DNA of 64,000 nucleotides, from assembly GCF_003674065.1 (NCBI RefSeq), contig NZ_RDBE01000001.1:160257-224256 (forward strand), given 5' to 3'. The DNA is from Nocardioides mangrovicus. GTDB lineage: Bacteria > Actinomycetota > Actinomycetes > Propionibacteriales > Nocardioidaceae. The notes under the pieces are model-generated. The model was not told the DNA's origin and did no database searches. It saw only the letters and a program-made list of their open reading frames with translations. Shown in pieces: positions 6,941 to 17,097 of the stretch. The position numbers and the translations under genes are program-made. Within the stretch, counting starts at the first letter, position 1; each line of letters begins with the position of its first letter.

Positions 6941-8020
6941 TCAGGGGTGCGCGGCGTAGAAGTCCAGGTGGGCCTGGGCGGCCCGGCGCCAGGTGAAGCG
7001 GCGTGCCAGCAGCCGCCCCGGCCCCGGGTCGGGCTCGGTGCGCGTCGCGGCGTCGAGGAGGCGGGCGAACGACGCCGGGTCGGTGCCGTAGCCGACGGTG
7101 TCGCCGAACACCTCGCGCAGCACCGGCAGGTCGCGCGCGACGACGGGGGTCCCGGCCGCGAGCGCCTCCATGGCGGCCAGGCCGAAACCCTCCTTCGTCG
7201 AGACCATCGCCAACGCGTCGGCCTGGGCGACGAGCGACGGCAGCTCGTCCTCGGTGAGGGTGCCGAGGACGACGGGCTCGACGCCCAGCTCGGCCGCGCG
7301 CTGCTCGTACCGGGCCCGGTAGTCGCGGTAGTCGAAGAGCGTCTCGCCGCCGCCGATCACCAGCCGCAGCTCGGGCCGCCGAGCGCGCAGCAGCGCGAAC
7401 GCCTCGAGCAGGTCGAGGCTGCCCTTGCGCGGCTCGATGCCGCCGAGCGCGAGCACGTAGCGGCCGAGCCGGGCCGACCACCGGTCGCGCCCCGCCCGGT
7501 CGGCGGCGCCGTGCTCGAAGCGCGCGGCGTCGACGCCGTTGGGGATGACGGTGGGCGTGAGCCCCCAGCCCTGCCGGACCTCGTCGGCCACGGCCGCGGA
7601 GACACAGATCCTCTGCCGTGGCGCCACCACCGCCCGCTCGTGACAGGCGGCCAGCTCGGGGGTGGTGAAGGTGTCGAGGTGGTGGATGGTGCGCACGCAC
7701 GGCAGGGCGGCGTTGGCCGAGATGCAGTCCTGGGCGTGGACCACGTCGTAACCGGCCCGCGCCGGGGCGAAGGCCTCGCGCAGCACCGCGATCGAGCGGA
7801 CGATGCGCGCCCCGACCGGCTCGGCGTCGTCGGGCGCGAACGGGACGGCCACCACCCCGACCGTCGGGTCGACGGGACGGAAGAAGCCCTGGTCGCCCTC
7901 GCGGGCCAGCGTCCAGACGTCGACCTCGACCCCTTTGGCGGCGAGCGCCTCGGCCAGCGCGAGGGTGTGCACGACGCCGCCGCGGGGGCGCGTCGAGTAG
8001 GTCAGCAGCGCCAGCCTCAC
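6941..8020 (-). CDS. MSMEG_0565-family glycosyltransferase
   Basis: GT4-fold glycosyltransferase (359 aa) of the type found only in Nit1C-like clusters (MSMEG_0565 family). The N-terminal acceptor domain begins LTYSTRPRGGVVHTLALAEAL. The C-terminal nucleotide-sugar domain carries GGIEPRKGSLDLLEAF near residue 205 and the EGFGLAAMEALAAGTPVVA motif near 290, with the conserved glutamate. It starts with GTG at 8020, whose GTGA overlaps the TGA of the preceding nitrilase-like gene. As the last gene of the operon it may glycosylate the cluster's unknown product. Donor and acceptor cannot be read from the sequence. Confidence 0.85.
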   Translation of the reverse strand: MRLALLTYSTRPRGGVVHTLALAEALAAKGVEVDVWTLAREGDQGFFRPVDPTVGVVAVPFAPDDAEPVGARIVRSIAVLREAFAPARAGYDVVHAQDCISANAALPCVRTIHHLDTFTTPELAACHERAVVAPRQRICVSAAVADEVRQGWGLTPTVIPNGVDAARFEHGAADRAGRDRWSARLGRYVLALGGIEPRKGSLDLLEAFALLRARRPELRLVIGGGETLFDYRDYRARYEQRAAELGVEPVVLGTLTEDELPSLVAQADALAMVSTKEGFGLAAMEALAAGTPVVARDLPVLREVFGDTVGYGTDPASFARLLDAATRTEPDPGPGRLLARRFTWRRAAQAHLDFYAAHP

Positions 8021-8844
8021 CGCAGCCGGTCCTGGTAGGCCGTCGGCGCGATCTCCTTGAGGTGGTTGAGCATCCGACGCGCCCGGCTGGTCTCGGCCGC
8101 CACGTCGACGTCGGCCACCGCCAGGCCGCCCTTGGAGGAGGTCCGGGCGAGCACGTCGCCGCCGGGGCCGACCACCTTGGCCAGGCCCAGGAAGCGCAAC
8201 CGGCCGTAGCTGCCGGTCTGGTTGGCCGAGGCGACCACCACCTGGTTCTCCGCCGCGCGGGCGCAGTCGTAGAGGTCGAAGAGCCGGGCCTGGCGGTCCT
8301 GCGGCAGCCGGCGGGAGCGGTCGGTGACGCTGGCCGGCCAGGCCGAGAGGCAGGCGATCACGTCGGCGCCGTCGAGCGCGAGCGAGCGCGCCGACTCCGG
8401 GAAGGTCTTGTCGTAGTCGATGAGCATGCCCATGCGCCCGAGCGGGGTGTCGAAGGCGTCGAACCGGCTGCCCGGCGTGAAGACCGACGCCTCGCCGGCG
8501 GGCAGGTGCACCTTGCGGTGGCGACCGAGGACGCCGTCGCCGCTCAGGCACAGCGCGGCGTTGTGGCGCCGCTCGCCGTCGGCCTCGGTCAGTCCCACGC
8601 AGACCACCAGCGACCCGGCGCGGGCGATCAGCCGTCGTACCTCGGGACCGTCGGGGTCCAGGGCGGGCGGCACGTCGGCCGCGTCGGGGTCCTGGAGGTC
8701 GCCGAGGTAGCCGCCCAGGGCAGCATCGGGCAGCACGAGCAGGTCGGCTCCCGCGCTCTCGGCGTCGCCCACGATGCCCTCGACCTTGGTCAGACACCGG
8801 TCCAGGTCGCGGCCGAAGTGCGCCGCGGCGACAGCGATCCTCAC
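8017..8844 (-). CDS. nitrilase-superfamily paralogue lacking catalytic Cys and Glu
   Basis: Carbon-nitrogen hydrolase-fold protein (275 aa), clearly paralogous to the nitrilase encoded at 10141-10995 (shared blocks HRKVH, SAWPAS, ANQTGSYG/SNQTGTFG, GHAKVVGPGG-like). The catalytic triad is broken. The glutamate box reads LLVLPDAALGG instead of LLALPEACLGG, and the nucleophile box reads MLIDYDKTFPE instead of MLICYDKGFPE (Asp-143, codon 8416-8418). The lysine in HRKVH is kept. Hydrolysis by the usual thioester route should therefore be impossible, so the protein may be structural, regulatory or a partner in a hetero-oligomer. It is embedded by GTGA overlaps between the flavoprotein and glycosyltransferase genes. 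The open frame and conserved core argue against random decay. Confidence 0.85.
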   Translation of the reverse strand: MRIAVAAAHFGRDLDRCLTKVEGIVGDAESAGADLLVLPDAALGGYLGDLQDPDAADVPPALDPDGPEVRRLIARAGSLVVCVGLTEADGERRHNAALCLSGDGVLGRHRKVHLPAGEASVFTPGSRFDAFDTPLGRMGMLIDYDKTFPESARSLALDGADVIACLSAWPASVTDRSRRLPQDRQARLFDLYDCARAAENQVVVASANQTGSYGRLRFLGLAKVVGPGGDVLARTSSKGGLAVADVDVAAETSRARRMLNHLKEIAPTAYQDRLR

Positions 8845-10148
8845 GACCCGACGCTCGCCCGCGGGGCCGCGACGACGTGCCGGGCGAGGTGGGTCGCGAC
8901 GTGCTCGGCATCCTCGGCGATGCCGAGGAACCGCCCCGATCCCCAGGTGTGCAGCCAGGGCAGGCCGAGGAAGTACAGGCCGCGGACCGCGGTCACGCCG
9001 CGCTGGTGCGTCGGGCGGCCGGTGCCGTCGAACACCCCGACCTCGACCCACCGGTAGTCGGGCCGGTAGCCGATCGCCCAGACCACGCTGGTGATGCCGG
9101 CCTCGGCGAGGTCGAGGTCCAGCAGCTCCTGGTCCGTGTTCTCGTCCGGCTGCCACACCGGCTCGTACCGGCTCGGCGGCGGCGCCTGGACGCCCTCCGC
9201 CTCGATGTAGCGGTCGATGTCGGCGCAGATGGAGTTGTAGACCGCGTCGGCGGAGTCCAGCGAGCGACGCAGGGTGGGCCGGAACCGCAGCGTCGTGCCG
9301 GATCCCTCGGTGAGCAGGCCGTGCAGCCGCATGCCGTCGGCGGCGAAGCGGCGCAGGTCGATGTCGTGGCCGCCGTCGCGGCCGGTCACGTAGTGGTTGG
9401 TCTTCTCGCGGGCGGCGAGACCGCCCGGGTACTGCGCGACCGGGGTGTCGTAGAGCCCCATCTCGGCCAGCCAGGTCATCGAGTCCCGGCCCCGGTAGGT
9501 GCGGGCCACGCGCGGTGCGTCGCCGATGGCCAGGTGCACCTGGCGACCGGCCAGGTGCAGGTCCTCGGCGATCTGAGCACCGGACTGTCCCGACCCGACG
9601 ACCAGCACGGCGCCCTCGGGCAGCGAGGCCGGGTTCTGGTAGTCCGAGGCGGTCAGCTGGTGCACCGAGGGGTCCAGGGCCAGCGCCCAGGCGGGCACGA
9701 CGGGGATGTGATAGCCGCCGGTGGCGACGACGACGGCCTCCGCTCGGCGGGTCACCTCGCCGTCGGGGCCGATCGAGGTGACCGTGAACCCGTCGGGGTC
9801 CTGCGTGAGCGAGGTGACCCGGGTGTGCTCGACCAGCGGCGGGTCGAAGGTCGCGGGATAGCCGCCGAGCCAGGTCACGACCTCCTCGCGGTTCATGAAG
9901 CCGTCGGGGTCCGGGCCGTCGTAGGCGTATCCCGGCAGCCGGCACTGCCAGTTCGGGGTGACCAGGGTGAAGGAGTCCCAGCGGGTGTCGGCCCACTCGT
10001 GCCCGGCCGTGCTCGCCTCGAGCACGACGTGGTCGATGCCGGCCTGCCGCAGGTGCCAGCTCGTGGCCAGCCCGGCCTGGCCGGCGCCGACGACCACCAC
10101 CGCGACCTGCTCCTGCTCGGCAGTCGACCCAGAAGACGCCTCAGGCAC
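8841..10148 (-). CDS. MSMEG_0569-family flavin-dependent oxidoreductase
   Basis: FAD/NAD(P)H flavoprotein (435 aa) resembling group B flavin monooxygenases. The FAD Rossmann motif VVVVGAGQAGLATSWHL is near residue 17. A second NAD(P)-type motif, VLVVGSGQSGAQIAEDL, is near 180. The C-terminal WAIGYRPDYRW segment resembles the ATG-type motif. Family members occur in Nit1C clusters, so it probably oxidises a cluster intermediate. The substrate is unknown. It starts with GTG at 10148, overlapping the nitrilase stop by 8 bp, with GGAG upstream. It overlaps the next gene as GTGA. The longer frame to 10292 is rejected because it would run antisense-like through the nitrilase C-terminus. Confidence 0.88.
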   Translation of the reverse strand: MPEASSGSTAEQEQVAVVVVGAGQAGLATSWHLRQAGIDHVVLEASTAGHEWADTRWDSFTLVTPNWQCRLPGYAYDGPDPDGFMNREEVVTWLGGYPATFDPPLVEHTRVTSLTQDPDGFTVTSIGPDGEVTRRAEAVVVATGGYHIPVVPAWALALDPSVHQLTASDYQNPASLPEGAVLVVGSGQSGAQIAEDLHLAGRQVHLAIGDAPRVARTYRGRDSMTWLAEMGLYDTPVAQYPGGLAAREKTNHYVTGRDGGHDIDLRRFAADGMRLHGLLTEGSGTTLRFRPTLRRSLDSADAVYNSICADIDRYIEAEGVQAPPPSRYEPVWQPDENTDQELLDLDLAEAGITSVVWAIGYRPDYRWVEVGVFDGTGRPTHQRGVTAVRGLYFLGLPWLHTWGSGRFLGIAEDAEHVATHLARHVVAAPRASVGS

Positions 10149-10995
10149 CGGAGGGCTCCGTCGCCAGGTAGACCTCGGGTCGCCGGTCGCGCAGGTAGGA
10201 CATCGAGCGACGGGCGGTGGCGATCGCGTCGGGCACGTCGAGCTCGGCCACCGCGAGGGCGTCGTCGACACCGGTGACGGCCAGCACCTCACCGCCCGGG
10301 CCCACCACCTTGGCGTGCCCGACGAAGCGCAGCGTGCCGAAGGTGCCGGTCTGGTTGGAGGCCACCCACACCACCTGGTTCTCCAGGGCGCGCACCCGGT
10401 CGAAGAGGTCGAAGCGGTGGGTCCAGCGGTCGTCGTCGAGGTCGGCGGCGGTCGCCGTCCGCGAGGCCGGCCACGCCGAGATGCAGGTGATGACGTCGGC
10501 GCCGTCGAGGGCGAGCGTGCGGGCGGCCTCGGGGAACCCCTTGTCGTAGCAGATCAGCATGCCCAGCCGGCCGGCCGGCGAGTCCACGGCGGCCAGCACG
10601 TCGCCGGCGGCGTAGAAGGCGCCCTCGCCGAGCGGCTGGTGCACCTTGCGGTGCACGCCGAGCACCCCGTCGCCGGTGACCGCGACGGCGCTGTTGTAGC
10701 GGTCGGTGCCGTCGGACTCGCACAGCCCCACCACCACCGTCATGTCGCGCGCGGCGCGTGCGACGCGGGACAGCTCCGGCCCGTCGATGTCCATCACCGG
10801 AGGTCCCTCGTCGCCATCGGCGCCGGCCGCGTCGGTGCTGTCGAGCGCGGCGAGGTAGCCGCCCAGGCAGGCCTCCGGCAGCGCGAGCAGCTCCACGCCA
10901 CGGCTCCGGGCCTCCTCGACGACCGCGTCGATCCGCGCCAGGTTGGCCTCGACGTCGCGTCCGAACCACCCGGCCAGGGCGGCCAGCACGCTCAT
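10141..10995 (-). CDS. Nit1C-type nitrilase (Nit6803-like)
   Basis: Carbon-nitrogen hydrolase of the nitrilase superfamily (284 aa), related to the cyanobacterial Nit6803/sll0784 group. The triad is intact: Glu in LLALPEACLGG near residue 42, Lys in HRKVH near 130 and Cys in MLICYDKGFPE near 148. In Pseudomonas fluorescens the homologous Nit1C nitrilase is needed for growth on cyanide, which is literature knowledge. The physiological substrate here is unknown. Its ATG overlaps the stop of the upstream GNAT-AIRS gene (ATGA), and the flavoprotein start overlaps its end. A second, catalytically broken copy lies two genes downstream. Confidence 0.9.
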   Translation of the reverse strand: MSVLAALAGWFGRDVEANLARIDAVVEEARSRGVELLALPEACLGGYLAALDSTDAAGADGDEGPPVMDIDGPELSRVARAARDMTVVVGLCESDGTDRYNSAVAVTGDGVLGVHRKVHQPLGEGAFYAAGDVLAAVDSPAGRLGMLICYDKGFPEAARTLALDGADVITCISAWPASRTATAADLDDDRWTHRFDLFDRVRALENQVVWVASNQTGTFGTLRFVGHAKVVGPGGEVLAVTGVDDALAVAELDVPDAIATARRSMSYLRDRRPEVYLATEPSGA

Positions 10996-12377
10996 GCCGC
11001 GGGCCCCAGTCCGGTCACGGCACCGACCGCCTCGGTGACGACGCCGTCGGGCCAGCGCAGCCCCACGCCGGACCCCTCGACCAGCTCACCGCACCTGGCG
11101 TGGCTCACGAAGCCGGGCAGGTCGGCGGGCCGGGCGTCGGCGGTGACCATGGCGAAGCCCGGGAAGCAGGTCAGCCAGTCGCCGGTCGTGGCGGCGGCGG
11201 GCTTCACGACGTCGGCGACGTCGAGCACGGCGCGGCATCCTGAGGCCTCGGCCAGCATCCCGGTCGTGCCCACCACCCCGGCCATCGAGACGTCCTTCGC
11301 CGCGGCCGGGCGCAGGGCCGGCACCACCTCGCGCAGCGCCCGCAGCTCGGCGGGGGTGCGGTGGGAGGTGGAGTCCCACTGCGCGCCGGTGTAGCCGGGC
11401 CGCCAGCCCCCGCCGAGGTCGGCGGTGAGCGAGAGCCGCTGCCCCGCCCGGCCCCCGCCGCCCGGCACCGGGCGGTCGGTGCGGCCTAGCGCGGTCACGC
11501 TGAGCGCGGCGGGCACGCCGAGCTGGGTGTGCCCGCCGAGCACCGCGACGTCGTAGGCCGCGGCCGCGTCGGCCAGGCCGCGCAGCACCCGTCGCGCGAA
11601 CGAGGCATCACGGGCGGCCACCGCGTCGAGCAGCCCGACCGGGGCGGCGCCCATCGCGAACAGGTCGTTGAGGTTCACCAGCACCGAGCACCAGCCGGCC
11701 CACTCGGGGTCGCGCTCGACCATCGCGGGGACGATGGCGTCGCAGGCCGCCACCAGGTCCGAGCCCGGCACGGGCGCGCCGTCGTCGCCGAGGAACCCCT
11801 CGCCGGGCCGGGTGAGGGAGACCAGGAGGCCGCCCAGCGGCTGCTTGGTGGCGGCCACCAGCCGGCGGACCCGCGCCACCGGCCACTCCAGGCGTCGGTG
11901 GGGCCGGCCGTGGAGGTCGACCGGCTCGTGGGTCGACCAGCCCAGCCGGGTGAAGAGCGGCACGTTCTGGGTCTGGACGGTCGCGTCGAACCGCAACGCC
12001 CCGGCCGCCTCGGCGTGCACGCACGCGGCCCTCACCAGGGCCGCGCCGACGCCCAGGCCGGCCCGGGCCGACGCGGCCACCGCCAGCCGGCTGCCGCGCC
12101 ACCAGCCGATGTCGGCTCCTCGCAGCGCCGGGTGGACCCGCACCCCGCCGAGCACCTGCCCGTCGGTGGCGAGCGCGACCAGGCTCACCGTGCGCGGGTC
12201 CTCGTCGACCTCGTCGCGGTCGCTGTGGTCGAAGACGCCCTGCTCGCCGACGAAGACCTCCCGGCGCAGCGCGTGGAGGGCGTCGAGCTCGCGGCGGCCG
12301 GCGGGCAGCACCGTGAACGCCGGGACCGGACCGGCGTCGCTGCCGGTCAGGATGCCGTTGTCGAGGGTCGTGGTCAT
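10992..12377 (-). CDS. GNAT acetyltransferase-AIR synthase-like fusion (MSMEG_0567 family)
   Basis: Bifunctional-looking protein (461 aa). Residues about 20-170 form a GNAT N-acetyltransferase-like domain (FVGEQGVFDHSDRDEVDED, AVAASARAGLGVGAALVRAA). Residues about 185-460 form an AIR synthase/PurM-like ATP-binding domain (VNLNDLFAMGAAPVGLLDA, GGHTQLG, KDVSMAGVVGTTGMLAEASGCRAVLDV). Cyanobacteria and Pseudomonas carry these as two genes; fusion is the actinobacterial form. The combination suggests acyl transfer and ATP-dependent amide or ring chemistry on a small molecule, but the reaction is not established. It begins 1 bp after the radical SAM stop and overlaps the nitrilase start. Confidence 0.88.
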   Translation of the reverse strand: MTTTLDNGILTGSDAGPVPAFTVLPAGRRELDALHALRREVFVGEQGVFDHSDRDEVDEDPRTVSLVALATDGQVLGGVRVHPALRGADIGWWRGSRLAVAASARAGLGVGAALVRAACVHAEAAGALRFDATVQTQNVPLFTRLGWSTHEPVDLHGRPHRRLEWPVARVRRLVAATKQPLGGLLVSLTRPGEGFLGDDGAPVPGSDLVAACDAIVPAMVERDPEWAGWCSVLVNLNDLFAMGAAPVGLLDAVAARDASFARRVLRGLADAAAAYDVAVLGGHTQLGVPAALSVTALGRTDRPVPGGGGRAGQRLSLTADLGGGWRPGYTGAQWDSTSHRTPAELRALREVVPALRPAAAKDVSMAGVVGTTGMLAEASGCRAVLDVADVVKPAAATTGDWLTCFPGFAMVTADARPADLPGFVSHARCGELVEGSGVGLRWPDGVVTEAVGAVTGLGPAA

Positions 12378-12378
12378 C

Positions 12379-13437
12379 TCAGCCTCCCTGGCAGCCCAGG
12401 GCCGAGCAGGCGCCGCAGGCCGCGCAGCCGGCCGCCTGGTCGGCGCCGGCCATGCCGGCCCGTCGCAGCGCCGCGGCCACCCGCGAGGTCACGTCGGCCA
12501 CCACCTCGTACGCCGGCGCCGGCACGTGGTCGACCTCGGTGGCCAAGGTGCCGGCCAGCGGCCGGAACGGCACGACGAACGGGTAGACGCCCATCGCGAT
12601 GAGCTCCTCGGCCCCCGCCACCAGCTCGTCGGGGTCCTCGCCCAGCCCGATGAGCAGGTAGGTCGAGACCTGGTTCCAGCCGAACACGCGGACCGCCTCG
12701 GCCCAGGCCGCCCGGTACTCCGACATCGGCACCGAGCCCTTGCCGGGCATCCAACGGAGCCGGGCGTCGTCGTCGAGGGACTCCACGTGGATGCCGATCG
12801 AGTTCGCCCCGGCCCGGTGCAGCTCGCTCAGTGTGGCCAGGTCGCCGGGCGGCTCGCATTGCACCTGGATGGGCAGGTCGGGCAGCACCTCGCGGACGGC
12901 CCGCACGCAGCGGGCCAGATGGGTGGCCCCGCGGTCGCGACCGCGAGAGGTGCCCGTGGTCATCACCAGCTGCGAGACGCCGTCGAGCTCGTGGGCGGCC
13001 AGCGCCACCTCCGCGATCTGGGCCGGGGTCTTGACCGCGATCGTCGAGCCCTGGCGCAGCGACTCCTCGATGGCGCAGAACCGGCACCGCTCGGACTCCG
13101 CGTAGCGCACGCAGGTCTGCACGACCGTCGTGGCCAGCACGTGCGCGGAGTGCAGCCGGGCGATCTGCTCGTAGGGCACACCGTCCTCGGTGACGAGGTC
13201 GTAGAAGCGAGGCCGGGCCACCGCCTCGACGCCCATCCCGGTGTCCGCCCCGTCGAGCAGCAGCCGGCCGCCGTCGACGCTGTAGGGGCTGCGCGGGTTC
13301 AGCGGGATCGCGGCGCCCACCCCGTCGAGCAGCACGTGGCCGTCGTCGCTGGGGCCGGCGCCGGCACGACGGCTCACCGGAGCGTCCATGAGGCGCACGC
13401 CGCGGATCGCGACGTCCACCCGGGTCGAGGAGCCCAC
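12379..13437 (-). CDS. MSMEG_0568-family radical SAM protein
   Basis: Radical SAM enzyme (352 aa). The cluster-binding cysteines are spaced Cx8CxxC (CVRYAESERCRFC, near residues 108-120), wider than the classical Cx3Cx2C. A second cysteine-rich tail (CAACGACSALGCQ) at the extreme C-terminus could bind another Fe-S cluster. The GTSRGRDRG and IGIHVESLDDDARLRWMPGKG segments fit a TIM-barrel biotin-synthase-like core. Family members are restricted to Nit1C clusters; the chemistry is unknown. It starts with GTG at 13437, 4 bp after the Sll0783-like gene, and is followed after 1 bp by the GNAT-AIRS fusion. Confidence 0.88.
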   Translation of the reverse strand: MGSSTRVDVAIRGVRLMDAPVSRRAGAGPSDDGHVLLDGVGAAIPLNPRSPYSVDGGRLLLDGADTGMGVEAVARPRFYDLVTEDGVPYEQIARLHSAHVLATTVVQTCVRYAESERCRFCAIEESLRQGSTIAVKTPAQIAEVALAAHELDGVSQLVMTTGTSRGRDRGATHLARCVRAVREVLPDLPIQVQCEPPGDLATLSELHRAGANSIGIHVESLDDDARLRWMPGKGSVPMSEYRAAWAEAVRVFGWNQVSTYLLIGLGEDPDELVAGAEELIAMGVYPFVVPFRPLAGTLATEVDHVPAPAYEVVADVTSRVAAALRRAGMAGADQAAGCAACGACSALGCQGG

Positions 13438-13441
13438 GGCG

Positions 13442-13966
13442 CTAGAGGTTGTAGACGGAGTTGATGATGGCGCCCTTGTTGGCGAAGTGGATGACGGCGT
13501 CCTGCACGTCGAGCGGGTGGCACGGGACGACGCCCTCGATGACGTCCTCCTCGCGCAGCCCGTGCAGCGCCATGCCGAAGCGGCAGCACAGCACCGTGCC
13601 GCCCTCGGAGATGAAGGTCTTGATCGCGTCGTTCATGTTCTGGTTGCCGGGGAAGGCGACGTCGCCGGTCGTGGGGAAGCCGCGGGTGTCCATGCAGGCC
13701 AACGTGCCCGGACCGTAGAAGTAGAGGGTGGTGTCGAAGCCCTTGCGCAGCGCGCGGGTCGACTGCAGGACGGCCACGAAGCTCACCGAGCTCTCGTGCG
13801 GGATGCCGTGCACCAGCGTCAGCCAGGCCTGACCCTCGGAGGCCTGGTAGTCGGGGAAGAGCTTCGTGCTGCCGTAGAGGTTGGTGCCCTTCTCCTGGGA
13901 GGGGTGGGGGATCTCGGCCACGGACTTCTCCATGTTGGCCAGGATCTCGTCGTCGTAGGCGGACAT
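13442..13966 (-). CDS. MSMEG_0572/Sll0783-family nitrogen starvation response protein
   Basis: Small cytosolic protein (174 aa) of the MSMEG_0572/Sll0783 family, named from strong induction of the cyanobacterial gene on nitrogen starvation. The central KTFISEGGTVLCCRFGMALHG region resembles DsrE/F-like folds with a double cysteine, but no catalytic role is known. It has an excellent Shine-Dalgarno (AAGGAG) before the ATG at 13966. It sits between the amidohydrolase gene (42 bp upstream) and the radical SAM gene. The usual neighbour of the MSMEG_0570 family (about 95 aa) is not found here. Confidence 0.87.
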   Translation of the reverse strand: MSAYDDEILANMEKSVAEIPHPSQEKGTNLYGSTKLFPDYQASEGQAWLTLVHGIPHESSVSFVAVLQSTRALRKGFDTTLYFYGPGTLACMDTRGFPTTGDVAFPGNQNMNDAIKTFISEGGTVLCCRFGMALHGLREEDVIEGVVPCHPLDVQDAVIHFANKGAIINSVYNL

Positions 13967-14008: not shown

Positions 14009-14836
14009 TCAGCTGTCGTAGAGCGTCGCGAGGTTGGTGCGGAAGAAGCCGTCGGCCAGCTCGCCGTCGCCGGCCGCCGCGCGCAGCCGGGCGTACTCGC
14101 CGGCGTGGTCGCCCCACGGGGTGTCGGTGGCGAACAGCACCCGGTCGTGGCCGACACCGCGGCGCTCGATCTCCGAGACCAGCCACGTCGGGGCGAAGCC
14201 GATCGCCCAGGAGGTGTCGGTGTAGACGCGCTTGCCGGCCTCGACCCAGTCGAAGAAGCGGCCGCCGATGAGCTTGATGTGGCCGCTCATCCCGCCCCCG
14301 AGGTGGACGAGGTGGATCTTCGTGGCGTCGCCGTAGCGCTCCACGAGGGTGCCCACGCGATCGATGTCGGAGGCGGCGCCGGGGGAGGTGTGCACGTGCA
14401 CGACGAGGTCGCGCTCGGCCGCGGTGGTGAAGATGCGGTCCAGCTGCTCCTGGCAGTCGGGGTCGTCGGGAGCCCCGCCGAGCAGGAAGCTGGTCTTCAG
14501 CGCGACGACGCCGGCCTCACCGGCCAGCGCGAGAGCCGCGTCGTTGCGCTCGGCATCGCTGGCCAGCGGCGAGAGCCACAGCCCGCAGCGCACCCGGTCG
14601 TCGCGCTGCGCGGCCTCCAGGGCGAGGTGGTTGAGCCCGAAGGCGGCGTCGGGGTCGGGCACGCCGTAATTGGGCAGCACGACCGTGCGCTCCACCCGCT
14701 CGGCGTCCAACCGGGCCAGGAACTCGGTGACGGTGGCGCTGGCGCTCAGGTCCGGCCTGACCGGGGCGCCGCCGTAGAACCCGAACGCCGGCAGCACGCC
14801 GATGTGGCGGTGCGCGTCGTTCGTGGTCGGTTCCAT
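14009..14836 (-). CDS. amidohydrolase-2 family metal-dependent hydrolase
   Basis: TIM-barrel amidohydrolase (275 aa from the ATG at 14836; a GTG at 14839 is also possible) of the PF04909 class, which includes ACMSD- and LigJ-type decarboxylases and hydratases. The metal ligands are visible: HxH in DAHRHIG at the N-terminus, His in VVHVHTSPG, His in HLVHLGGG and Asp in LFATDTPWGD. It is the most upstream gene of the minus-strand operon that continues into the Nit1C genes. It could equally serve the dioxygenase pathway encoded next door, because LigJ-like enzymes act after ring cleavage. The substrate is unknown. Confidence 0.8.
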   Translation of the reverse strand: MEPTTNDAHRHIGVLPAFGFYGGAPVRPDLSASATVTEFLARLDAERVERTVVLPNYGVPDPDAAFGLNHLALEAAQRDDRVRCGLWLSPLASDAERNDAALALAGEAGVVALKTSFLLGGAPDDPDCQEQLDRIFTTAAERDLVVHVHTSPGAASDIDRVGTLVERYGDATKIHLVHLGGGMSGHIKLIGGRFFDWVEAGKRVYTDTSWAIGFAPTWLVSEIERRGVGHDRVLFATDTPWGDHAGEYARLRAAAGDGELADGFFRTNLATLYDS

Positions 14837-14859
14837 CACTCGATGGAACGGGCCAGGTG

Positions 14860-14920
14860 TTTCGGCGTGGTTTCGCCAGGAATACCGATCGCGAGCGAAC
14901 GCGTAAGTTCGCGGTTACGC
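14860..14920 (-). promoter_or_regulatory. candidate nitrogen-control (GlnR-like) promoter region of the Nit1C operon
   Basis: Upstream of the amidohydrolase start the minus strand carries GAAAC-CACGCC-GAAAC (14875-14860), two copies with the exact 6-bp spacer of actinobacterial GlnR sites. Further up it carries GTAAC-N6-CTTAC (14918-14903). The same stretch also contains the inverted arms GCGTAA/TTACGC. The match to the GTNAC-N6-GAAAC consensus is incomplete, so this is a candidate only. Confidence 0.35.
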
Positions 14921-14939: not shown

Positions 14940-15302
14940 TCAGGTGTCGATGGCGGGGTAGGGGAGCTCGACGTGCGCCAGCTTCGCGGCGTAGTCCAGC
15001 TGCATGCCCAGCGGCTCGTCGAAGTCGCGCTCGAACATCGCGATCCACAGCGTCAGCGTGAGGAACGGGTGGGCGCCCATCTCGAACAGCGCCACCTGGT
15101 CGTGGGCGACCAGGGCCTCGCGCTCGGCGTCGGTCAGCCGCAGCCAGGTGGTCTGCTCGGCGTCGATGCTGTTGAGGAGCTTCCCGGCGAGCTCGCTCTC
15201 CCACCAGGCCACGAGGGCGGCGGGGTCCTCGCGGTAGCGCTCGGTGAGCTCGGCGTCGCGGTCGACGGTGTAGAGGAACTTGTTCAGCAGGTACTTGCTC
15301 AC
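14940..15302 (-). CDS. ligA: LigA-like small subunit of extradiol dioxygenase
   Basis: Small (alpha) subunit, 120 aa, of a class III extradiol dioxygenase of the protocatechuate 4,5-dioxygenase LigAB type. It forms the lid over the LigB active site. The helical LigA fold is suggested by LNKFLYTVDRDAELTERYREDP and by the LTDAEREALVAHDQVALFEMGAHPFLTLTLW segment. It starts with GTG at 15302, overlapping the ligB stop as GTGA, so the two subunits are coupled. The true ring substrate (protocatechuate, gallate or a heteroaromatic diol) cannot be told from the sequence. Confidence 0.85.
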   Translation of the reverse strand: MSKYLLNKFLYTVDRDAELTERYREDPAALVAWWESELAGKLLNSIDAEQTTWLRLTDAEREALVAHDQVALFEMGAHPFLTLTLWIAMFERDFDEPLGMQLDYAAKLAHVELPYPAIDT

Positions 15303-16174
15303 GACCGCGTCCCCTCGATCAGCTGCGGGTTGGGGTACCAGGTGAAGTAGGCCTCCATGGTGTGGAAGAGATCCAGGTGGTCGGCGTAGTCGGCCTTCAC
15401 GTGTCCGGCGATGCCCATCATCAGCATGAAGTCCATGAAGCCGTGGGTGGCGTTGCCCGGCGCGTGCAGGCTGTCGAGCGTCACCTCCGAGAGGCAGCCG
15501 TCGATGTCGCCGTTGCCGATCCACTCCACGGCCCGGGCGTCGAACTCCGGGTCGGGGCCGTGCGGTCCGAACTGGCGGGGACCGCCCAGCTCCAAGGAGA
15601 GGTGCCCGGTGCCGATGACGGCGACGCGCAGGTCGCTGGGCCAGGCGTCGATGATCTCGCGGATGGTGCGGCCCAGGGCCACGAAGCGCTCGGGCCGGGG
15701 CAGCGGCGGCGCGAAGATGTTGGTGTAGATCGGCACGATCGGGAGGTCGTTCTGCGGCCGCACGGTGAAGATCGGGCAGGTGACCGAGTGGTCGACCCGC
15801 AGCTCGTTGGAGAAGGCGAGGTCGAAGCCCTTGTCGATGCCCTCGCGCAGCATGTACGCCGAGAGTTCCTCGTGGCCTTTGAAGAACAGCTTCGGGAGCC
15901 CGAACTCCCGCATCTCGTTCTCCCAGTTGCCGTCGTAGAACGGCGCCTTGCCCACCAGGAACTGCGGCATGTTGTCCAGCCAGATCTGGTGGAAGTGGTC
16001 GGAGCCGACCATCACCAAGACGTCGGGGTTCGCCCGCGTCAGCGTCTCGCGGTACGCCTCGACCTTGCGCACCCACTCGGCCGCGAAGGGCGGCGCCTCC
16101 TCCGGTGCCAGCTGGCTGGTCCGGTAGTAGAACGGGTGGTGCGTCGTGGCCAGGATCGCCACCAGCTGGGCCAT
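15299..16174 (-). CDS. ligB: LigB-type extradiol ring-cleavage dioxygenase large subunit
   Basis: Catalytic (beta) subunit, 291 aa, of a LigAB-type non-haem Fe(II) extradiol dioxygenase. Likely Fe ligands are the His pair in ILATTHHPFYYR near residue 11 and the glutamate downstream; VMVGSDHFHQIWLDNMPQF supplies a further conserved His pair. GTGHLSLELGGPR near 180 carries the conserved catalytic His. It lies at the head of the ligBA pair and diverges from an IclR regulator. A perfect 10-bp-arm palindrome (16216-16243) lies between them, so it is probably controlled by that regulator. Confidence 0.88.
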   Translation of the reverse strand: MAQLVAILATTHHPFYYRTSQLAPEEAPPFAAEWVRKVEAYRETLTRANPDVLVMVGSDHFHQIWLDNMPQFLVGKAPFYDGNWENEMREFGLPKLFFKGHEELSAYMLREGIDKGFDLAFSNELRVDHSVTCPIFTVRPQNDLPIVPIYTNIFAPPLPRPERFVALGRTIREIIDAWPSDLRVAVIGTGHLSLELGGPRQFGPHGPDPEFDARAVEWIGNGDIDGCLSEVTLDSLHAPGNATHGFMDFMLMMGIAGHVKADYADHLDLFHTMEAYFTWYPNPQLIEGTRS

Positions 16175-16272: not shown

Positions 16273-17097
16273 ATGGCGCTGTGGGACGATCCTGAGGTGG
16301 CAGGACGCGGCACCGGACCGGACTTCGTCGAGGCACTCGCGCGCGGCCTCGACGTGCTCACCTGCTTCGACGACCTGCACCGGGAGATGACGCTGGCCGA
16401 GGTGGCCGCGGCCACCGACCTGGCCCGGCCGACCGCGCGGCGGCTGCTGCTGACCCTGGCCGAGCTGGGCTACGTCCGGGTGGCCGACGGCCGCTTCGCC
16501 CTCACTCCGGCGGTGCTGCGCCTGGGCTCGGCCTACGCGAGCTCGCTGGGCCTGTGGGAGATGGCGCGCCCGCACCTGGAGGAGCTCGTCGCGCAGACCC
16601 ACGAGTCGTCCTCGATGAGCCAGCTCGACGGCTCCGACATCGTCTACGTCGCCCGGGTCGCGGTGCCGAAGATCATCGCGCTGCGCGTCGACATCGGCAC
16701 CCGCTTCCCGGCCGTCGTGGCCTCGCAGGGCAAGGTGCTGCTCGCCGCGCTCTCGCCCGAGGAGCTCGACCGGGTGCTGGCCGAGCCCACCCGCTCGGGA
16801 GTCGCGGCGCCGCCGGTCGACCGGACCGCCCTGGGCGAGGAGCTCGCCGTCGTCCGTGAGCGCGGCTGGGCGCTGGCCGACGAGGAGCTCGCCCGCGGCA
16901 TCCGCTCGGTCGCGGTGCCGGTGCGCGACGGCGGCGGCGAGGTGCGCGCCGCCATGAACGTCACCGTCCACGCCGCCGAGACCAGCGTCGCCACGCTGAC
17001 CGAGGAGTACCTCCCGCTGCTGGTGCAGGCCGCCGGTCGCGTCGCCGACGACTGGGCCGCGTGGCACTCCCGGCCGCAGGTCGAGCTCCATCCCTGA
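16273..17097 (+). CDS. IclR-family transcriptional regulator
   Basis: IclR-type regulator (274 aa). The N-terminal winged helix (about residues 20-75: ALARGLDVLTCFDDLHREMTLAEVAAATDLARPTARRLLLTLAELGYV) is followed by the effector-binding domain (about 90-265: SSSMSQLDGSDIVYVARV, GTRFPAVVASQGKVLLAAL, RGIRSVAVPVRDGGGEVRAAMNV). It resembles the PcaR/PcaU/PobR subgroup that senses aromatic acids or ring-cleavage products. It diverges from ligBA across a 98-bp region with a perfect palindrome and probably controls the surrounding catabolic genes. The ligand is unknown. Its ATG has no clear Shine-Dalgarno. Confidence 0.93.
   Translation: MALWDDPEVAGRGTGPDFVEALARGLDVLTCFDDLHREMTLAEVAAATDLARPTARRLLLTLAELGYVRVADGRFALTPAVLRLGSAYASSLGLWEMARPHLEELVAQTHESSSMSQLDGSDIVYVARVAVPKIIALRVDIGTRFPAVVASQGKVLLAALSPEELDRVLAEPTRSGVAAPPVDRTALGEELAVVRERGWALADEELARGIRSVAVPVRDGGGEVRAAMNVTVHAAETSVATLTEEYLPLLVQAAGRVADDWAAWHSRPQVELHP

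Follow-up and report, generated by a model that had tools for sequence, protein, structure and literature searches.

Two related proteins of the nitrilase superfamily, here called A and B, are encoded in a gene cluster of Nocardioides mangrovicus (RefSeq assembly GCF_003674065.1, contig NZ_RDBE01000001.1, positions 160,257 to 224,256; this whole stretch of 64,000 nucleotides is referred to as the window). B has the Glu-Lys-Cys catalytic triad of the superfamily and A does not, and the question raised by this locus is whether A is a damaged copy or a protein kept for a purpose and, if it is kept, for which one. The reading that we prefer, and to which we assign a probability of roughly one in two, is that A is an ancient, catalytically dead paralogue retained as an accessory subunit that would pair with B and shape or regulate the active site of B.

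By translation, the motifs around the triad sites are LPDAALGG and MLIDYDK in A (D40, K111 and D143) and LPEACLGG and MLICYDK in B (E41, K117 and C149). The triad is therefore intact in B and reads Asp-Lys-Asp in A, as the original prediction, made from this stretch of DNA alone, had stated. A and B are 52 % identical, both match the Pfam family CN_hydrolase (PF00795; 111 bits for A and 134.5 bits for B, with a cut-off of 23.2), and both have structure models with the nitrilase-superfamily fold (predicted local distance difference test score 92.1 each). CN_hydrolase is the sole Pfam domain of A, and the genome holds eight PF00795 matches, six of them besides A and B. By title, the 50 Foldseek matches listed for A are nitrilase-superfamily proteins. 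The solved folds nearest to A are those of the Pyrococcus nitrilase/amidase, 3IVZ, 1J31 and 6YPA (27 % identity, template modelling score 0.82-0.83 by query length). These are enzymes and not natural dead paralogues, 6YPA being a laboratory C146A variant. One gene, for a flavin oxidoreductase, separates the genes for A and B, and the gene for A is intact and coupled, as predicted, with an open frame and 4-base overlaps with both neighbours.

The cluster had also been described as an operon of the Nit1C type. This holds for the neighbouring families (TIGR04043, TIGR04044, TIGR04045, TIGR04050, TIGR04046 and TIGR04047 each score above cut-off) but not for the hydrolases, as neither passes the Nit6803/Nit1C nitrilase model TIGR04048 (25.7 bits for A and 43.2 bits for B, with a cut-off of 502.6). 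The best E-values for this model among other members were 8.4e-14 (49 B) and 1.6e-9 (37 A). No NCBIfam model was passed by B, the best being that for N-carbamoylputrescine amidase (106.8 bits, cut-off 410.25).

The loss of the triad in A is not a private mutation, and copies of this kind are found in the nitrogen-starvation gene clusters of many soil bacteria. Among 127 distinct A open reading frames (ORFs), the Cys site is Asp in all 127, and the Lys and the second Glu are likewise invariant. The Glu site is D in 112, G in 9, Q in 3 and Y, H or N in 1 each, so that the four-site types are DKED (112), GKED (9), QKED (3), YKED (1), HKED (1) and NKED (1); the 127 distinct B proteins are all EKEC. 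The claim that both Glu and Cys had been replaced by Asp is thus correct for this copy and, at the Cys site, for its relatives, but the Glu site of the relatives is not fixed as Asp, with at least 7 changes on a tree with 37 A tips. A limit applies to these counts, as 80 of the A entries from which the 127 were drawn come from a first scan of genome contigs (80 loci) made with a pattern that contained MLIDYD. That scan was biased to Asp at the Cys site, and alone is no evidence on that site.

Three further surveys, free of this bias, bear on the Cys site. For the order survey, 196 genomes were queried with A and the best 30 matches taken; Asp is found at the Cys site in 30/30, and the Glu site is Asp in 24, Gly in 4, His in 1 and Asn in 1. 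For the class survey, the marker MSMEG_0572 was sought in 393 genomes, and the region around each of the 66 places found, in 59 positive genomes, was examined. All 29 A proteins recovered there have Asp at the Cys site, and Asp (22), Gly (6) or Gln (1) at the Glu site. The order and class surveys have genomes in common. The genus survey covered 148 genomes from the genus of G242, which is probably Mycobacterium in the wide sense (its A is 85 % identical to that of Mycolicibacterium stellerae). A was found in 20 genomes, with Asp-Lys-Asp in 20/20, and 10 other carbon-nitrogen (CN) hydrolases recovered by the same search have Glu-Lys-Cys. Relatives of A that retain Glu and Cys, which would have spoken for a private mutation or an error, were looked for in the three surveys and none was found. 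In a set of 37 A proteins, Tyr46, Lys111, Glu118, Asp143, Trp169 and Pro170 are invariant (37/37), as is Thr147, which is specific to A.

Relaxed selection, the other outcome that would have undermined the original prediction, was not seen. As a protein, A is more conserved than B in 4277 of 5356 non-independent pairs drawn from the 104 loci with both. Of 48 disjoint pairs, 38 have the lower ratio of non-synonymous to synonymous substitutions (dN/dS, by the NG86 method) in A and 9 have it in B, with 1 tied. For the 28 disjoint pairs in which both dS values are <0.5, the medians are 0.113 for A and 0.170 for B, with A lower in 22; as dS comes out too low for distant pairs rich in GC, to which some of these 28 belong, only the comparison between A and B is used. 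A protein that lacks the triad and yet is conserved no less than B must be of some use to the cell. The explanation of A as a private mutation, a sequencing error or a decaying duplicate could appeal to the absence of both catalytic residues from the N. mangrovicus copy. The same Cys replacement in every A examined, the open frames and a dN/dS that in most pairs is lower than that of B rule it out for practical purposes, and we regard its probability as negligible.

A tree was built from 37 A, 49 B and 15 other CN hydrolases, and in it A forms a single clade with support of 100. All 15 outgroup CN hydrolases carry Glu and Cys at the triad sites, and for this reason Glu and Cys are taken as ancestral and A as having lost them. 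A clade of B from clusters without A (A-less B), together with one B from Acidimicrobiia, was not resolved against A in this tree. When 346 genomes from across the phylum were searched, three from other classes (G771, G791 and G811) yielded five close relatives, each with Glu-Lys-Cys. Two of the five are cluster-borne, lying between the GNAT/AIR gene and the oxidoreductase gene, and the stretch examined contains no A in either case. Further CN hydrolases with an intact triad, which share 48-56 % identity with A or B, were seen in other actinobacterial classes (L251:9476-10582, L254:9534-11408 and L255:199-1098). No cluster genes are present in the stretches examined around them, and two of the genomes also carry a cluster-borne relative.

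A second tree, of 21 of the 37 A and 32 of the 49 B with intact relatives from other classes as outgroup, recovered A as a single clade (100/96) and B as a single clade (99/91) that includes the A-less B and the Acidimicrobiia B. The outgroup of this tree does not fall on one side of any branch, and the two cluster-borne relatives are weakly placed (91/44). Acceptance of the B clade implies three or more losses of A: one in a 12-cluster clade (two genera of family f21; the tree includes five of these clusters), one in L161 and one in L167. A is also present in one Acidimicrobiia genome (L046), and the duplication is therefore either old within the Actinomycetota or was transferred.

The 66 places of the class survey comprise 29 with both A and B, 14 with B alone, none with A alone and 23 with neither. 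Four of these 23 (L128, L134, L142 and L145) carry genes of the cluster but run off the contig end before B and A, one (L183) is a distant cluster, and 18 have no radical SAM gene, B or A, though L121 and L185 each have one further cluster-type gene. Lone MSMEG_0572 genes, with no other cluster gene in the stretch (some of which are short), were seen at L122, L123, L125, L129, L131, L169 and L172-L176, and genomes G310, G387 and G448 have a lone MSMEG_0572 copy plus a full cluster. In the first scan, B was in the same stretch in 76 of the 80 loci. Of the four with A but without B, L054, L085 and L087 are truncated where their contigs stop, and only L088, described below, looks complete; in L032, one of the 76, B is fragmented, like other genes there. 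L087, on a contig labelled Acidobacteriaceae, is a partial cluster (57-68 % identity) with a gene order like that of Mycolicibacterium locus L072, and may be a wrongly binned actinobacterial contig. In stretches that carry a single A gene and a single B gene, the two share a strand with B upstream in 104/104, as near neighbours in 65 (33 with a 4-base overlap) and with intervening genes in 39. No natural fusion of A and B was found among the ORFs of 186 loci. In Rhodococcoides trifolii, the marker, radical SAM, GNAT/AIR, A and glycosyltransferase genes are on one contig (L088) and an intact B and the oxidoreductase on another (L256), so that the pair is kept even when split. In L124 (about 8360-9850) and L126 (4085-5755), the slot after B holds, in place of MSMEG_0569, another ORF of the flavin adenine dinucleotide (FAD) type, recognised by eye from a glycine-rich start. 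It is followed by A in L124, and A is absent from L126.

In the nitrilase superfamily, the dimer interface known as the A surface consists of helices alpha5 and alpha6; it may contribute to the positioning of the catalytic Cys, and mutations in it abolish activity (PMC4981594). This dimer is described as common to all known functional members (PMC4700190). Residues 143-147, 149-157 and 184-200 are helical in the model of A, and the helices 143-157 and 184-200 were taken as alpha5 and alpha6, equated by position in the fold and not by coordinates. Nine positions are fixed in each family but differ between them (A numbering, A/B): 143 Asp/Cys, 147 Thr/Ala, 185 Gln/Trp, 188 Leu/Arg, 192 Tyr/Phe, 198 Ala/Leu, 219 Leu/Val, 259 Leu/Met and 264 Glu/Asp. 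The first six lie within the two helices, compared with 18 of the 79 positions fixed as the same residue (Fisher p 0.011, or 0.028 without position 143). The mean entropy of the interface helices is 0.30 in A and 0.47 in B, compared with 1.62 and 1.59 for other helices. These helices are nearly frozen in A, and the surface therefore still appears to be in use there. At the 185/191 site (A/B numbering), Gln is found in all the intact relatives (5/5), and at the 198/204 site these have Ala or Val; Trp191 and Leu204 of B and Leu188 of A therefore look derived. By this comparison of residues, B seems to have gained a bulky Trp and Leu and A a Leu in place of a polar residue, and the two surfaces seem to have grown unlike, as expected for a hetero-specific pair.

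Several observations weigh against this reading. B occurs without A in 14 of the 43 B-bearing clusters of the class survey, and no A was found elsewhere in those 14 genomes, where the cluster B is the only strong match and nothing else exceeds 90 bits. A is therefore dispensable in some lineages. The A-less B keep Arg194 (14/14), Leu204 (14/14) and mostly Trp191 (11/14), differing from paired B only at 198 and 201 in the second helix and at 234 (198 is Tyr in 9/14, compared with Phe in 110/113 paired B); 13 of the 14 genomes belong to one family. An A:A homodimer explains the frozen interface helices equally well, and A and B are unlinked in the genome of L088. Median dN/dS values are near-equal over 4657 non-independent close pairs (0.348 for A and 0.374 for B), with A higher in 1607; these pairs include distant ones for which dS is too low. 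Covariation between A and B, by mutual information with average product correction over 62 non-redundant pairs, including the present one, gave a block mean of -0.004, reached by 74.5 % of shuffles. This result is uninformative, since within the interface helices the variable columns number only 7 in A and 10 in B. The possibility that the interface residues of B are purely an adaptation to A was also considered and is not borne out, since A-less B keep most of them.

On the preferred reading, A and B would be made from one coupled mRNA and would pair through alpha5 and alpha6, giving a dimer with one working Cys active site. A would hold in place the alpha5 of B, which begins with the catalytic Cys, and/or would tune specificity via its own former active site, in which Asp143 replaces Cys beside the invariant Lys111 and Glu118. 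The invariance of these three residues is compatible with the binding of a ligand or with a salt bridge that has a structural role. We infer heterodimerisation, loss of hydrolytic activity in A and an effect of A on B, and A is probably a partner or control part and not an ordinary enzyme. In a more specific form, held tentatively, A would be a clade-wide natural pseudoenzyme with Cys fixed as Asp, the first of its kind in the literature searched, and would act as the asymmetric allosteric half of an A:B dimer, with an Asp143-Lys111-Glu118 pocket that binds a metabolite of a Nit1C-type pathway and so controls how active or how specific B is. The original prediction had offered a selected pseudoenzyme or a new chemistry; selection on a triad-less A is borne out, and of the roles proposed that of a hetero-oligomer partner appears to fit best.

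Three other roles for a functional A were weighed. A could act alone, as a homodimeric ligand-binding protein or sensor whose old site (Asp143-Lys111-Glu118) binds substrate, product or an ammonium-like group and signals to the cluster enzymes. The strong conservation of A, the six invariant residues from Tyr46 to Pro170 and helices alpha5 and alpha6 conserved as in any dimer would all suit such a protein. However, A is found only with B (29/29 class-survey clusters, and in trans in L088) and downstream of it on the same strand in 104/104, which points to work with B, and the Pfam search found no effector domain on A. We consider this role unlikely. It is improbable that A is an enzyme of new chemistry, in which Asp143 would serve, next to Lys111 and Glu118, as the nucleophile or a base, although those three residues are invariant in 127/127 and the A-specific Thr147 is nearby. 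The general-base site may be Asp, Gly, Gln, His, Asn or Tyr, so that the mechanism would have to dispense with it, and this variation speaks against hydrolysis with an Asp nucleophile. We know of no active member of the superfamily with a Cys-to-Asp replacement.

Most doubtful of the three is a role as scaffold or partner, not of B, but of the flanking flavin oxidoreductase (MSMEG_0569) or glycosyltransferase (MSMEG_0565). Here the overlap of A with both neighbours in N. mangrovicus counts in favour, as does the distribution of MSMEG_0569, which is present in 28 of the 29 A-bearing class-survey clusters (L124, with the other FAD-type ORF, is the remaining one) and absent from 12 of the 14 A-less clusters. 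In L088, moreover, A adjoins the glycosyltransferase with B and the oxidoreductase elsewhere. However, the 12 clusters without both come from two genera of one family, the A-less L161 and L167 keep the oxidoreductase, A adjoins B with the oxidoreductase far off in L136 and L141, and the distant position of the oxidoreductase in L088 also separates it from A.

The eight genes form a compact cluster that runs from 14839 down to 6941 of the window, and they are listed in Table 1. All four gene junctions flanking A and B overlap, as read from the sequence: ATGA at 10995-10992 (fusion gene/B), GTG at 10148-10146 before the B stop at 10143-10141 (B/oxidoreductase), GTGA at 8844-8841 (oxidoreductase/A) and GTGA at 8020-8017 (A/glycosyltransferase). 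The GTG start of the oxidoreductase at about 10148 is likewise a reading from the sequence. A relative of the Amidohydro_2 family hydrolase is found in 35 of the 43 B-bearing clusters of the class survey. No MSMEG_0570 protein was identified in the family searches of the cluster, and no search aimed at MSMEG_0570 was made. A GlnR-like half-site with one mismatch lies at 14859-14874 (minus strand), about 20 bases upstream of the first gene; such matches are at chance level in the window (6 found, 7.5 expected). Just upstream of the cluster, at 14940-16174 (minus strand), are a LigB-type extradiol dioxygenase (family match) and a short ORF read as a LigA-like subunit, followed at 16273-17097 (plus strand) by a divergent ORF that resembles an IclR-type regulator, read by eye only.

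Table 1. Genes of the Nocardioides mangrovicus cluster, with positions in the window
Feature	Position	Strand	Basis or residues
Amidohydro_2 family hydrolase	14009..14839	-	Pfam family match; first gene of cluster
MSMEG_0572/Sll0783 family nitrogen starvation response protein	13442..13966	-	TIGR04044
MSMEG_0568 family radical SAM protein	12379..13437	-	TIGR04043
GNAT + AIR-synthase-like fusion, MSMEG_0567	10992..12377	-	TIGR04045, TIGR04050
Protein B, intact CN-hydrolase paralogue, 284 aa	10141..10995	-	Glu41-Lys117-Glu124-Cys149
MSMEG_0569 family flavin-dependent oxidoreductase	8841..10148	-	TIGR04046, 630.1 bits (cut-off 498.35), scored from 10103
Protein A, putative nitrilase-fold pseudoenzyme, 275 aa	8017..8844	-	Glu replaced by Asp40; Lys111 and second Glu118 kept; Cys replaced by Asp143
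MSMEG_0565 family glycosyltransferase	6941..8020	-	TIGR04047

The same gene families make up the gpr operon of Mycobacterium smegmatis, MSMEG_0565-0572 (PMC6039565). Five of its families are matched by model here (0565, 0567, 0568, 0569 and 0572), together with the two hydrolases, in a different order, namely 0572-0568-0567-B-0569-A-0565. In the Mycolicibacterium relative L072 the order is 0572-B-0569-0568-0567-A-0565, and MSMEG_0571 would therefore correspond to B and MSMEG_0566 to A, by position alone. In tables of the nitrogen-limitation response, MSMEG_0566 is listed as an aliphatic amidase and MSMEG_0571 as a carbon-nitrogen hydrolase (PMC4222082, PMC4617892). Nitrogen starvation induces the operon, GlnR-dependent peroxide resistance is reported to require it, MSMEG_0571 has been proposed to be a read-through selenoprotein, and the roles of single genes were left open by the authors (PMC6039565). 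The original prediction knew of no description of this pairing for Nit1C clusters. Both hydrolases had in fact been listed in the M. smegmatis papers, and triad loss is not mentioned in the extracts of them. We found no report of triad loss in MSMEG_0566-type proteins in open-licence full text, as far as extracts cover it; most subscription papers lie outside this literature. If A is a dead subunit, the label of aliphatic amidase on MSMEG_0566-type genes is probably wrong, and assays of B alone may miss its true activity or specificity.

The Nit1C cluster with the Nit6803/NitC nitrilase (PMC1199592) shares radical SAM, GNAT and pyridine-nucleotide oxidoreductase-type genes with the present cluster, and the two are linked by TIGR04044 and TIGR04045, which span the Sll0783/Sll0786 and MSMEG families. 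However, the Nit1C cluster has one nitrilase, of another subfamily, and the present cluster is without a Nit6803 nitrilase (TIGR04048). A parallel in arrangement is that of NIT4A and NIT4B of grasses (PMC3537687, PMC6214922, PMC5154151), which, like A and B, are two superfamily paralogues, and which need a heterocomplex for activity (PMC6214922, PMC3537687). NIT4A and NIT4B are plant nitrilases, whereas A and B are an operonic bacterial pair. A pseudoenzyme paired with an active paralogue is a known kind of arrangement, though new for the nitrilase superfamily as far as the open-licence literature searched can tell, and A and B, if the pairing is true, would be a clean natural case of a duplicated enzyme split into a working and a non-working half.

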